A stretch of DNA of 64,000 nucleotides from Dehalococcoidia bacterium. GTDB taxonomy: Bacteria; Chloroflexota; Dehalococcoidia; Tepidiformales; Tepidiformaceae. The position numbers and the translations under genes were made by a program. Positions within the stretch are counted from its first letter, which is position 1. Each line of letters begins with the position of its first letter. Below are positions 1,120 to 17,830 of the stretch, in pieces. The stretch lies in NCBI GenBank assembly GCA_020432045.1, contig JAGQHB010000043.1, positions 1-64,000 on the forward strand, read 5' to 3'. Below the pieces are notes generated by a model that worked only from the letters and a program-made list of their open reading frames with translations, was not told the DNA's origin and did no database searches.

Positions 1120-2238
1120 TCAAGCGCGCAGGACGACGTCCTCGAACTGTTCGACTATCGATTCGAGCGCCAAAGCGAGCGGGGGCCGAAGCGCCGTGCC
1201 GGCGAACGTGTCCGCCAAGAGCCCGGCGACGTAGTCGTTTCGCCGGTAGTGGCGCCCGCCACTGAGGCTGAATAGTTCGGCCGACAGCTTCGCCGCTTCC
1301 ATCGTGACGTACGTCTTCGCACGAAGGACACGTCCCGCATAGGCGGCATCCGCCCCGGGAGTCCAGGCCTCCGCCGTGGTTTGCAGATACGCATCGATGG
1401 CTTCGTAGCGCATGACCGCGTCGGCAATCCGCAGGCGCAGAGCAGGTGAGGACGGGGCGGGGGTCGTCAACGCGTCGATGATGCCCCGAACGCATCCGAG
1501 GGGGATGGCAGCAAAGAGGCAAAACCAGTACTGCAGCGGCCGTACCGTATTGATGAAGTTCGGGAACCCGAGGAGAGCGTGGGCCGGTGCGTCTTGATAG
1601 TGGACTGACTGGCTTTCGGTGGAGCGCATGCCGAAGCCGTCCCAGTCATCGCGCACGTCGACACCTTTGCCTGCCGCCGGCATCAGGAAGAACTCGACGA
1701 CACCGGCTCCGGGGAGGTCCGCCGGGTCGACTTTCGCGGTTGAGAAGAACCACGATGCGTTCCGGCCGCCGGAGGCGAGGATCTTCTCACCGTTCAGCTG
1801 GAATCCGCCTCCTGACACTGTCGCGACCGTATTGATGGCCGCAAGCGAGCCACCAGCGCCCTTTTCAGAGTTGCAGGCGGCAAACAGCCGGTGCGCCCGA
1901 TATTCGGAAGCTGCCCACTCGATCTGCTCGCGCCAACGGTCCCGCCAACCCGGGGGAGCGAAGCCACGATCGGTTGCGAAGCAAGCACCAGCCAGGCCAA
2001 GCGGCATCGACACGATAAGGGCGGTGGATGGCGACTGCGAGGCAATCGTGCATATCGCATCGACTGACTCCCGCAGGGTCCACCCTCTGCCACCAAGACT
2101 GGCTGGGAACGGGCCGGGCACCATGCGGGCGTCGTAGAGAGAAGAGATGTTCTCAGCGGGGTAGCTTTCGGGTGCCGCTGCATCGCGCTCGCGGAAGCTT
2201 GCCGCTATCTCAGAAACTTCGCCGGTTGCCAAGAGCAT
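1120..2238 (-). CDS. Acyl-CoA dehydrogenase-like flavoprotein
   Basis: This 372-residue protein has the acyl-CoA dehydrogenase architecture. An N-terminal helical part (GRGWTLRESVDAICTIA) is followed by a beta domain (about residues 120-215, including FQLNGEKILASGG) and a C-terminal helical part with the family-like SLSGGRHYRRNDYV. The ATG at 2238 is chosen because an AAAGGAGG ribosome site lies just upstream; a longer frame reaching 2364 would run into the divergent neighbour. It probably oxidises an acyl-CoA or a related small substrate with FAD. The nearest relatives may be the more divergent DszC-like or hydroxylase-type members, and the catalytic base cannot be placed with certainty. It is divergent from the LLM oxidoreductase gene. 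Confidence 0.8.
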   Translation of the reverse strand: MLLATGEVSEIAASFRERDAAAPESYPAENISSLYDARMVPGPFPASLGGRGWTLRESVDAICTIASQSPSTALIVSMPLGLAGACFATDRGFAPPGWRDRWREQIEWAASEYRAHRLFAACNSEKGAGGSLAAINTVATVSGGGFQLNGEKILASGGRNASWFFSTAKVDPADLPGAGVVEFFLMPAAGKGVDVRDDWDGFGMRSTESQSVHYQDAPAHALLGFPNFINTVRPLQYWFCLFAAIPLGCVRGIIDALTTPAPSSPALRLRIADAVMRYEAIDAYLQTTAEAWTPGADAAYAGRVLRAKTYVTMEAAKLSAELFSLSGGRHYRRNDYVAGLLADTFAGTALRPPLALALESIVEQFEDVVLRA

Positions 2239-2358
2239 GAACCTCCTTTGAGTCGTCTGAATGATATCCGTTCGTCGTGGGGGCACCATGCATGACAGTC
2301 GTTCCCGCAGCCGTAACAAGCGGCGCCGCTGCGCTGCGCACCGCCGGGCCTGTAGGCT

Positions 2359-3426
2359 ATGCATGTGAGTTCTTCCCTTGGTATTCCCCTCTCAGTCCTC
2401 GACCTCGCACCCGTCCCGGAAGGTTCCAGCCCCGGTGACGCGCTGCGCAATTCGCTCGACCTCGCACCGCGCGTGGAACGGCTGGGGTTCGAACGCTACT
2501 GGGTCGCGGAGCACCACAACATGCCGGGGATCGCGTCATCGGCGCCGGCGGTATTGTTGGCGCACATCGCCTCGGTGACGTCGACGATGCGGATTGGATC
2601 GGGCGGCGTCATGCTGCCGAACCATTCATCGCTGGTGATCGCGGAGCAGTTCGGGATGCTTGAAGCGCTGCATCCGGGGCGCGTGGATCTCGGGCTCGGC
2701 CGGGCTCCAGGGACTGACCAGCTGACCGCACGAGCACTGCGCCGTACCCACGTGCCCGGCCGGGACGCGGATGACTTCCCCGATCAGCTGGTGCAGCTCT
2801 TCGGCTACTTCGACGGCCAGTGGCCGGCGAACCACCCTTACGCGAGCATCACAGCGACGCCCGGCCTGGGAAACCGGCCGACGATCTGGATGCTCGGCTC
2901 TTCGGACTACGGGGCGGAGGTTGCGGGCTATCTCGGGCTGCCGTATTCGTTTGCGCACCACTTCATGGCAGCGAACACGATGGCAGCGGTACGGACATAT
3001 CGCGACTCGTTCCGGCCGAGCGCCGTGCTCGACGCCCCGTATCTCATGCTTGGCGTCTCAGTCGTGTGCGCGGAAACGGACGAAAGTGCGCAGTGGCTGG
3101 CAGGATCAGGCTTGCTCTCCTTTGTGCGGCTGCGGAGTGGGCGGCCGGGACGGTTCCCGTCACCTGAGGATGCCGCAGCCCATACGTATTCCCCGTTCGA
3201 ACAGGCGCTGCTCGACGACCGCGCGAGTTCGCAAATCGTCGGCGACCCGGCAACCGTGAAGGCAGGTCTCGCGGAACTGGTCGAGCGTACGGGTGCAAAC
3301 GAGCTGATGATCACGACGATGGTCCATGCTCACGGGGAGCGCGTCCGGTCCTATGAGCTGGTCGCAGGGGTGACCGGACTCGAGCCACGTGTTGAGGAAC
3401 GAGCGCCAGCCGTCGGCGCGCACTGA
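2359..3426 (+). CDS. LLM-class flavin-dependent oxidoreductase (luciferase-like, MsnO8 type)
   Basis: This 355-residue TIM-barrel protein belongs to the bacterial luciferase-like family. Diagnostic segments are the N-terminal [12 protein letters not shown], the [18 protein letters not shown] block, the [22 protein letters not shown] block and [13 protein letters not shown]. Such proteins use reduced F420 or FMN to oxidise small molecules; the substrate cannot be told. The start at 2359 has no strong ribosome site, and the next codon but one is a GTG, so the exact N-terminus is open. The 120-base gap to the divergent dehydrogenase gene must hold both promoters. The methyltransferase gene follows 39 bases downstream and may be co-transcribed. 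Confidence 0.88.
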
Positions 3427-15884: not shown

Positions 15885-16670
15885 TCACCTGAATCGGTCA
15901 GGCATGCCCCCGGCCTCGATGACCTGGTGATACAGCGTGTGTGTTTCGCCGAGTGCATCGGCGAAGGGGAAGAGGCGGCGGGTGACGAGGAGGTCGTCTT
16001 CGCAGGCGAGCGGGTGCCAGAAGACGCCGTCGCGGCTCACTGTGACCTCCGGTTCAAGCGTGCTGGCGGAGACTTCGATGCCGTCGTCCGAGTAACCACG
16101 CTTTGCCAGCGGCCGGAAGAAGTGGGCTTCGGGCTGGATGCCGAGCTGCACAACGGCGTCCCGGGTCTGGCGTTCGAGGCCACTGTTCGCGGCGGTCTCG
16201 GTGGTGCTCACGGATACATCGAAGCCGCGTCCGCGGAGTAATTCGATGCCGCTACAGGCTTTTTCCCAGCTTCCGGCGCCCCGGATTGGATCGTGAGCTT
16301 CCGGGGAGGGGCCGTCGAGGCTCACCTGGAACCGGACCGAGCCGCCGGCGAGCGTATCAAGTATGCGGAGGCGGGCGCCGTGAAAGAGCATCGCGTTGGT
16401 CAATACGGTGGTCGGGACACGCTCCATCGCATAGGTGATGCGATCGCCGATATCGGGGAGGAGGAAGGGTTCGCCGCCGGTGAGGAACACCTCCGTGATG
16501 CCCGCTTCGACCGCTTCATCAATCAGGCGCCGGAACTGTGGCATGGCAAGGGCGCGCCGTTCGACGCGGGGCCCAGAGCGAGCGCAGCAGTAGCTGCAGT
16601 GAAGATTGCAGTCAAAGTTCGTATACACCCACAGGCGCGGAGCGAAGACGGCCGGGCAAGCGTGATCCAT
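15885..16670 (-). CDS. Radical SAM protein
   Basis: This protein of about 261 residues has the radical SAM cluster motif C-x3-C-x2-C (CNLHCSYC) near its N-terminus and the GGEPFL motif that contacts SAM. Later beta strands (VRFQVSLDGPSPEAHD) match the partial TIM barrel of MoaA/PqqE-like enzymes. No SPASM domain with extra cysteines is visible; only single cysteines occur later (KACSG, LACED). The start is uncertain between ATG 16670 and GTG 16697, neither with a strong ribosome site. Substrate unknown. It is divergent from the selenoprotein gene and upstream of the AsnC and DoxX genes on the same strand. Confidence 0.85.
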   Translation of the reverse strand: MDHACPAVFAPRLWVYTNFDCNLHCSYCCARSGPRVERRALAMPQFRRLIDEAVEAGITEVFLTGGEPFLLPDIGDRITYAMERVPTTVLTNAMLFHGARLRILDTLAGGSVRFQVSLDGPSPEAHDPIRGAGSWEKACSGIELLRGRGFDVSVSTTETAANSGLERQTRDAVVQLGIQPEAHFFRPLAKRGYSDDGIEVSASTLEPEVTVSRDGVFWHPLACEDDLLVTRRLFPFADALGETHTLYHQVIEAGGMPDRFR

Positions 16671-16828
16671 CGGCGTCACACTACCGCCGGTTCGCACGGC
16701 AAATGTTCACGGTTCATTACGAGCATGGCGATCTGCGAAACAGGCAAGGGAGCGCCGGTAGGACAGCCGTGGAGTTCGGACTCTAGGATGTAAGGGTACG
16801 TACGAATGAAGACGGCGAGGGGACAAGA

Positions 16829-17830
16829 ATGAGCCAGGAACCGGTCGAGCGAGCGCGGCCCGCAATGCGAAATCCGGAGACATTCGACTTTCCGACCGGG
16901 CCGGAGGAAGGCGAGATCCTGCCGGCCTCGGGCGGCAAAGACCAGTACGGGAACGCGGTGAGCTTCGGTGGACCCACGCCCGGCCAGGGCGAGTACGTCG
17001 TCTTCATCCGCGCAACAGCGTGGTGACCGTTCTGCAGAACGCAGCTCGTCGAGCTGCAGCGAAGGATCGAGGACTTCAAAGCGGCGGGGGTCAGGGTGAT
17101 CGCGGTATCCCCTGAACCGGTCGATGTGGTTGCGGCGTTCACCAGTGAGTATGGGATCACGTACCCGGTGGTCTGCGACGAGGACTCGTCAGTGATCAGT
17201 ACTTTCGGAATCCTGAATACGCTGATCGACCCTGACGAGCCACTGTACGGGCTGCCTTTCCCGGGCTCGTACCTGACCGATTCGGAGGGCCGGGTCACGG
17301 CGAAGTTCTTCAACAGGCGCTACCAGGAACGCGAGGCGCCTGAGATCGTCTTCCACGACGGGCTTCACCTGCCCGTGGATCTCTCAGCACATCCGGGCGC
17401 GACGGGAGAAGCGGGCGTTTCCGCCGTACTGGCCTCACCGCGGCTCACCTTCCAGCAGAAGACCGCAGTACTCGTACGCCTGGACCTTGATGCAGGCATG
17501 CACGTATACGGGCAGCCGATCCCGGACGGGTATGTGGCGACAACCGTGACGGTGAGCGCACCCGAAAGCGTCGTCGTGGGCGAACCGATCTACCCTGCAA
17601 CGAAGCCGTTCGCGGTGGAGGGGCTCAACGAAGCGTTTCATGTGTTCGAAGGCAAGGTGGAGATAGAGGTGCCGCTGCTCTCATCGGAAATCGAAGCAGA
17701 GACTGTCTCGCTGGACATCCAGGTGCACTACCAGGCATGCGATGAGCGGGCCTGCTACATGCCGCAGACCGTGCGGCTGGCGGTCGAGGCGCCGGTGGGG
17801 AAGCTCAACCGGCCGCCGCGGCGCGGCTAG
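16829..17830 (+). CDS. Selenocysteine-containing peroxiredoxin-like protein fused to a DsbD-alpha-like domain
   Basis: The frame is read through the TGA at 17024-17026 and gives 333 residues. Residues about 15-160 form an AhpC/TSA-type thioredoxin fold; the TGA falls at codon 66 in FIRATAW-U-PFCRTQL, exactly where relatives have the first Cys of C-x2-C. Downstream the fold continues without shift (VRVIAVSPEPVDVVAAF). Residues about 195-325 resemble the periplasmic alpha domain of DsbD, with the Cys pair in YQACDERACYMPQ. The start ATG has GAGGGGA upstream. No signal peptide is obvious. The role is probably peroxide or disulfide reduction using a highly reactive selenolate. Selenocysteine genes are not in this window. 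Confidence 0.85.
17024..17057 (+). promoter_or_regulatory. In-frame UGA with SECIS-like hairpin
   Basis: The UGA codon (17024-17026) is followed after 14 bases by GCAGCTC (17041-17047), a GTC loop (17048-17050) and GAGCTGC (17051-17057), a perfect 7-bp stem. A small apical loop with G at its first position about 22 bases after the UGA fits the bacterial SECIS pattern recognised by SelB. The hairpin lies within the coding region, as bacterial SECIS elements do. Confidence 0.75.

Follow-up and report, generated by a model that had tools for sequence, protein, structure and literature searches.

Positions 16829–17830 of the forward strand of the window, the 64,000-nucleotide stretch of DNA from a Dehalococcoidia bacterium analysed here, encode a single predicted selenoprotein of 333 residues in which a peroxiredoxin-like (Prx-like) domain is followed by a DsbD-alpha domain, a reading confirmed by our sequence comparisons. 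The frame runs from an ATG at 16829 to a TAG at 17828–17830, with GAGGGG at 16817–16822, 6 nt before the ATG, a possible ribosome-binding site by its sequence. Its single internal TGA, codon 66 (17024–17026), lies in W-U-P-F-C and is predicted to encode selenocysteine (Sec66) as the first residue of a U-x-x-C active site, with Cys69 (17033–17035) as its partner. An earlier note on this DNA had pointed to this TGA, with coordinates, frame and codon that all proved exact, and had counted 267 more sense codons past it, as our reading of the frame bore out; given the base composition, 267 open codons would arise by chance with a probability of about 3.5e-4. The note had also anticipated that gene finders would split or truncate the gene, and the standard ORF call indeed returned only a 244-aa C-terminal piece starting from GTG 17096.

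In the window alone, neither the length of the open frame nor the hairpin described below is overwhelming as evidence. We regard the selenoprotein reading as settled because the same TGA recurs in at least 40 other genes, Cys homologues exist, the hairpin is conserved and the genome encodes the full Sec machinery. The relatives with a TGA at the same codon, at least 40 in other genomes with 24–38% identity, fall in the window's phylum (Chloroflexota) and in Acidobacteriota, a recurrence that also speaks against a TGC or TGT in place of the TGA, which would have undone the proposal; alignment against Cys homologues, which the earlier note had suggested, placed Cys in the Sec66 column in 18 homologues. 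That the region holds two ordinary genes or a pseudogene, with the TGA either a genuine stop or an error of sequencing, would fit the split made by standard ORF calling but is hardly credible in the face of this recurrence at such low identity, full-length conservation on both sides of the TGA, the Cys homologues, the conserved hairpin and the Sec machinery. We also rejected a global reassignment of UGA: within the window it serves as the stop of several clear genes, those for radical-SAM, HxlR and CoA-transferase proteins among them, and the code is therefore not reassigned.

The SECIS-like hairpin occupies 17041–17057 of the forward strand, beginning 14 nt past the TGA, and has exactly the form that had been described for it, with a perfect 7-bp stem and a 3-base, G-first loop, GUC (GCAGCTC-GTC-GAGCTGC). 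In folding energy, the 43-nt hairpin region RNA was no more stable than shuffled sequences (z −0.40), in an Rfam scan of the region no RNA family, SECIS included, passed its cut-off, and the window hairpin on its own gave p 0.03 against a synonymous-codon null. Across loci, 6–7 of the 7 pairs were present in 37/37 distinct Sec loci versus 6/24 Cys loci. Within the window's phylum, where the 16 Sec loci comprise 15 fusions plus the single-domain lipoprotein L036, 94.6% of hairpin cells were paired, compared with at most 43% when the partner was slid by 1–3 columns, and two of the pairs carried compensatory changes with both sides altered. The combined p under the synonymous-codon null was 4e-8 for these 16 loci, 3.5e-8 for 21 distinct Acidobacteriota Sec loci and 0.40 for Cys loci, values that assume independent loci and are to that extent optimistic. 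Two main forms of the hairpin, differing at codons 73–74 (17045–17050 in the window), were found across Sec loci: in one, Leu CTC with Val GTN gives 7 bp and a GUN loop; in the other, Leu CTG, always accompanied by Val GTC, gives 6 bp and a GGUCG loop. One Sec locus had CTA-GTT. All Sec sequences counted have GTN as codon 74, a position that varies among Cys homologues. The comparison thus supports a role for this hairpin in directing Sec insertion at codon 66.

The machinery for insertion, named in the earlier note as selA, selB, selD and tRNA-Sec, with absence of selB or tRNA-Sec counting against its proposal, is all present in the genome to which the window belongs (97% complete; 3.48 Mb in 115 contigs): SelB scored 310 bits, above cut-off, SelA 520 bits, SelD 355 bits and tRNA-Sec, with anticodon TCA, 70 bits. 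This SelD (L019, about 1399–2685, plus strand) has an in-frame TGA of its own in a CGGU motif and is itself a selenoprotein. SelA was above cut-off in 14/16 Sec-form genomes versus 3/16 Cys-form genomes (Fisher p 2.4e-4), a contrast that is confounded with phylum; the two Sec-form genomes lacking a SelA match are 77% and 81% complete.

Gene neighbourhood offered no pointer to a substrate, since among 14 loci nothing was conserved beyond the gene itself, and a second cluster in that comparison was the antisense frame of the selenoprotein gene. The neighbouring genes in the window are unrelated (radical SAM, DoxX, HxlR, cupin, YCII and metallophosphoesterase); the radical SAM gene (15885–16697, minus strand) is divergently transcribed, with no link to the selenoprotein found. 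Promoter and terminator scans were empty, and a plasmid search gave partial matches only, all under 60% identity.

The first domain, residues 30–160 (16916–17308), combines an AhpC/TSA (Redoxin) sequence domain (PF00578, 80.3 bits; PF08534, 51.7 bits) with a Prx fold, its structural neighbours being peroxiredoxins (Bcp4, Z 19.9; AhpE, Z 19.3), and the AhpC-TSA model matched all 53 aligned members, covering residues 36–158 in the window protein. The earlier note had called the protein a peroxiredoxin; fold and domain stand, and the name is too strong for a protein with a UxxC active site and no PxxxTxxC signature. That signature is absent from the 53-member alignment, with F at −7 in 50/53 and A at −3 in 49/53; the window protein itself has F at −7 and T at −3. 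PF00578 together with UxxC defines the Prx-like thiol:disulfide oxidoreductase selenoproteins (PMC13188914), and the window protein has both; because the peroxiredoxin signature is absent, 'Prx-like thiol:disulfide oxidoreductase' fits better as a name. No NCBIfam model reached its cut-off for the window protein. The best matches were ResA (43.3 bits versus 170) and the SelL-related model NF040769 (42 versus 120), the latter matching 53/53 members at E 0.001 or better. A true peroxiredoxin, a hydroperoxidase in which Sec serves as the peroxidatic residue, would account for the AhpC/TSA score and for AhpE and Bcp4 as neighbours, but the missing signature and the identity of the best sub-threshold models, ResA and SelL-related, make it an unlikely description, though the protein may still have peroxidase activity as such. 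With ResA/TlpA the protein shares a W-C-x-x-C-type active site, and it has the ResA match given above; unlike them, it has Prx-like fold extensions, Sec and a fused domain, and is without a membrane anchor.

The second domain, residues 208–317 (17450–17779), bears out the proposed fusion to a DsbD-alpha-like domain with its own Cys pair. It matches DsbD_N (PF11412) at 49.4 bits against a cut-off of 25, as do 50/53 members at E 0.001 or better, and in a structure search the top 11 rows were all nDsbD or ScsB N-terminal domains (Z 11.3–11.9; next 9.4). AlphaFold modelled the full-length protein with a pLDDT of 92 and a pTM of 0.88 and the second domain with 94 and 0.86. The predicted structure has the nDsbD immunoglobulin-like fold and an equivalent of its C103/C109 pair: in the profile alignment, Cys304 (17738–17740) and Cys309 (17753–17755), set in the YQxC...C motif of nDsbD and ScsB, align with Cys103 and Cys109 of E. 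coli DsbD. Unlike in those proteins, the domain is fused to a Sec domain, is apparently cytosolic and has no DsbD transmembrane or gamma domain attached; the 333-aa protein consists of its two domains only. It is the only DsbD-alpha of the window genome, which has no other PF11412 match. The genome's only match to the DsbD transmembrane domain is a separate CcdA/DsbD_TM-like membrane protein (G000:C57:48507–49304; L126, L127).

Only four thiol or selenol positions are conserved across the 53 aligned proteins, namely 66, 69, 304 and 309. Positions 66 (Sec or Cys) and 69 are invariant (53/53 for Cys69), and C304 and C309 are each present in 51/53. Of the two proteins without them, L053 has a last match that stops early, and L073 (G408) is a divergent Sec protein in which the active site reads W-U-G-F-C and the second domain is degenerate. 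The C304/C309 pair is thus not strictly required, because L073 retains Sec and has lost the pair.

Localisation was judged from the hydropathy of the N-terminus rather than by a signal-peptide predictor. By this measure none of the fusions from the window's phylum begins with a strongly hydrophobic segment, an upstream extension of the window frame would add 14 hydrophilic residues at most, and most Acidobacteriota members carry a signal-peptide-like segment. The window selenoprotein is therefore probably cytosolic and the Acidobacteriota versions mostly secreted.

The explanation we favour, and consider somewhat probable, is a cytosolic selenoprotein whose UxxC site is reduced within the molecule by the fused DsbD-alpha domain. 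Within DsbD, nDsbD receives electrons from a Trx-fold domain and hands them on to Trx-fold CxxC clients (PMC7347389). In the fusion, SelB bound to the hairpin just inside the reading frame would deliver Sec-tRNA(Sec) to UGA codon 66. Judging from UxxC chemistry, Sec66 would attack an oxidised substrate, which may be a hydroperoxide or the disulfide of a protein or small molecule, and Cys69 would resolve it as a selenenylsulfide. C304/C309 would then reduce the selenenylsulfide intramolecularly, as nDsbD does with DsbC and CcmG, and cytosolic thioredoxin, at a guess, would recharge the pair. The secreted Acidobacteriota versions would carry out the same reactions in the cell envelope. ScsB, a DsbD relative, was reportedly found by Cho et al. 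in 2012 to serve a cell-envelope peroxiredoxin. As nDsbD donates to Trx-fold clients and ScsB reportedly to a peroxiredoxin, the fused domain would most simply be an intramolecular donor to the Sec site. The four conserved positions and the confident two-domain model make such a relay plausible, and it would work in the cytosol because no signal peptide is apparent in the window protein, whose DsbD-alpha is the genome's only one. Against it, nDsbD is normally periplasmic and paired with cDsbD, so that a cytosolic nDsbD without cDsbD is unusual, and L073 keeps Sec without the pair. For the broader picture of a self-contained selenium relay, in which DsbD-alpha is the built-in reductant of a cytosolic selenoenzyme in bacteria without a full DsbD, with secreted versions in Acidobacteriota and many Sec/Cys swaps, we judge the case evenly balanced.

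Electrons could instead flow in the opposite direction, with the UxxC domain acting like cDsbD to load DsbD-alpha, whose C304/C309 would reduce an outside client. This is the sequence of transfers in DsbD itself, and a Trx-superfamily domain does precede nDsbD in the fusion. Sec in the attacking position, however, is usually the residue that contacts the oxidant or substrate, and the fold of the first domain is Prx-like rather than cDsbD-like; we therefore think this direction rather improbable. We are more doubtful still that the domains work independently, as a Prx-like Sec reductase and a DsbD-alpha that serves only to dock partners or stabilise the fold. The loss of the pair in L073 would suit that arrangement, but the near-complete conservation of C304 and C309 and the confident joint AlphaFold model speak against it. 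The favoured intramolecular relay would place DsbD-alpha, a periplasmic electron carrier, in the cytosol as the fused partner of a Sec enzyme, and the fusion puts a Se–S relay of this kind within reach of direct tests on a single purified protein.

Prx-like thiol:disulfide oxidoreductase selenoproteins (PF00578, UxxC/UxxU) are a class known by prediction, exemplified by WP_010940744.1 (PMC13188914, PMC9312934). The window protein shares with that class the AhpC/TSA fold, the UxxC active site and Sec/Cys pairs; the class is listed without DsbD_N, and it is the description in that listing that sets it apart. Sec Prx-like domains fused to other Cys-bearing domains are also known from the GOS survey (PMC2398784). 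There, Unknown_3 resembles our protein in joining a Sec Prx-like domain to a Cys-bearing one, and it differs by description in having three conserved Cys including a CxxC, where the DsbD-alpha here has two in Cx4C; on that description, Unknown_3 is unlikely to be identical with this DsbD-alpha domain. TsoB, a rhodanese/DsbD fusion-like selenoprotein, is listed in PMC13188914. In the main texts of open-access papers we met with no account of a selenoprotein that joins Prx-like and DsbD-alpha domains; TsoB and the Prx-like fusions of the GOS survey came nearest. The DsbD-alpha fusion adds a conserved selenoprotein architecture, spanning two phyla; gene finders break it at the TGA, and its member in the window falls below all NCBIfam cut-offs.

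The fusion recurs in both phyla. Five other full-length copies were found among 99 close genomes and nine more, including L073, among 400 genomes of the window's phylum, with TGA in all of them; beyond the window gene, 14 fusions were thus found in that phylum, and all full-length ones found have TGA in the Sec66 column. In Acidobacteriota, 38/297 genomes searched contained the fusion, and the Sec codon was TGA in 27 of the 30 loci fetched, the other three being Cys forms that had already been found. A pattern scan of GTDB genomes, which by design could detect Cys codons only, turned up Cys relatives of two kinds, full-length fusions from Acidobacteriota and single-domain proteins from Alphaproteobacteria; as the Cys codon itself was the means of ascertaining the first Cys set, the Sec and Cys counts are not prevalences. 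A maximum-likelihood tree of 53 rows, built by a short search with SH-aLRT support, contained a well supported clade of 21 proteins, all Sec and including the window protein, and a second clade of Acidobacteriota with Sec and Cys mixed. Parsimony required at least nine Sec/Cys changes, four of them forced by well supported branches. These many natural swaps, in which Sec forms retain the hairpin and most Cys forms do not, provide a system in which to ask why selenium is kept or lost.

Several sequences in the search stood apart. L035 (G040) had the look of a free DsbD_N domain; no AhpC/TSA frame was recognised beside it, and we dropped it. A full-length Cys fusion that nests among Acidobacteriota sequences lies on L054, a contig labelled Bifidobacterium breve, and the label is probably a binning or labelling error. 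The alphaproteobacterial L055, L057–L059 and L061 are single-domain secreted Cys proteins of about 180–210 aa, possibly kin of the N-terminal half of the fusion. Finally, L036 (G094, minus strand) is a single-domain, lipoprotein-like Prx-like protein with W-U-T-F-C and without DsbD-alpha, in which the hairpin is partly kept.
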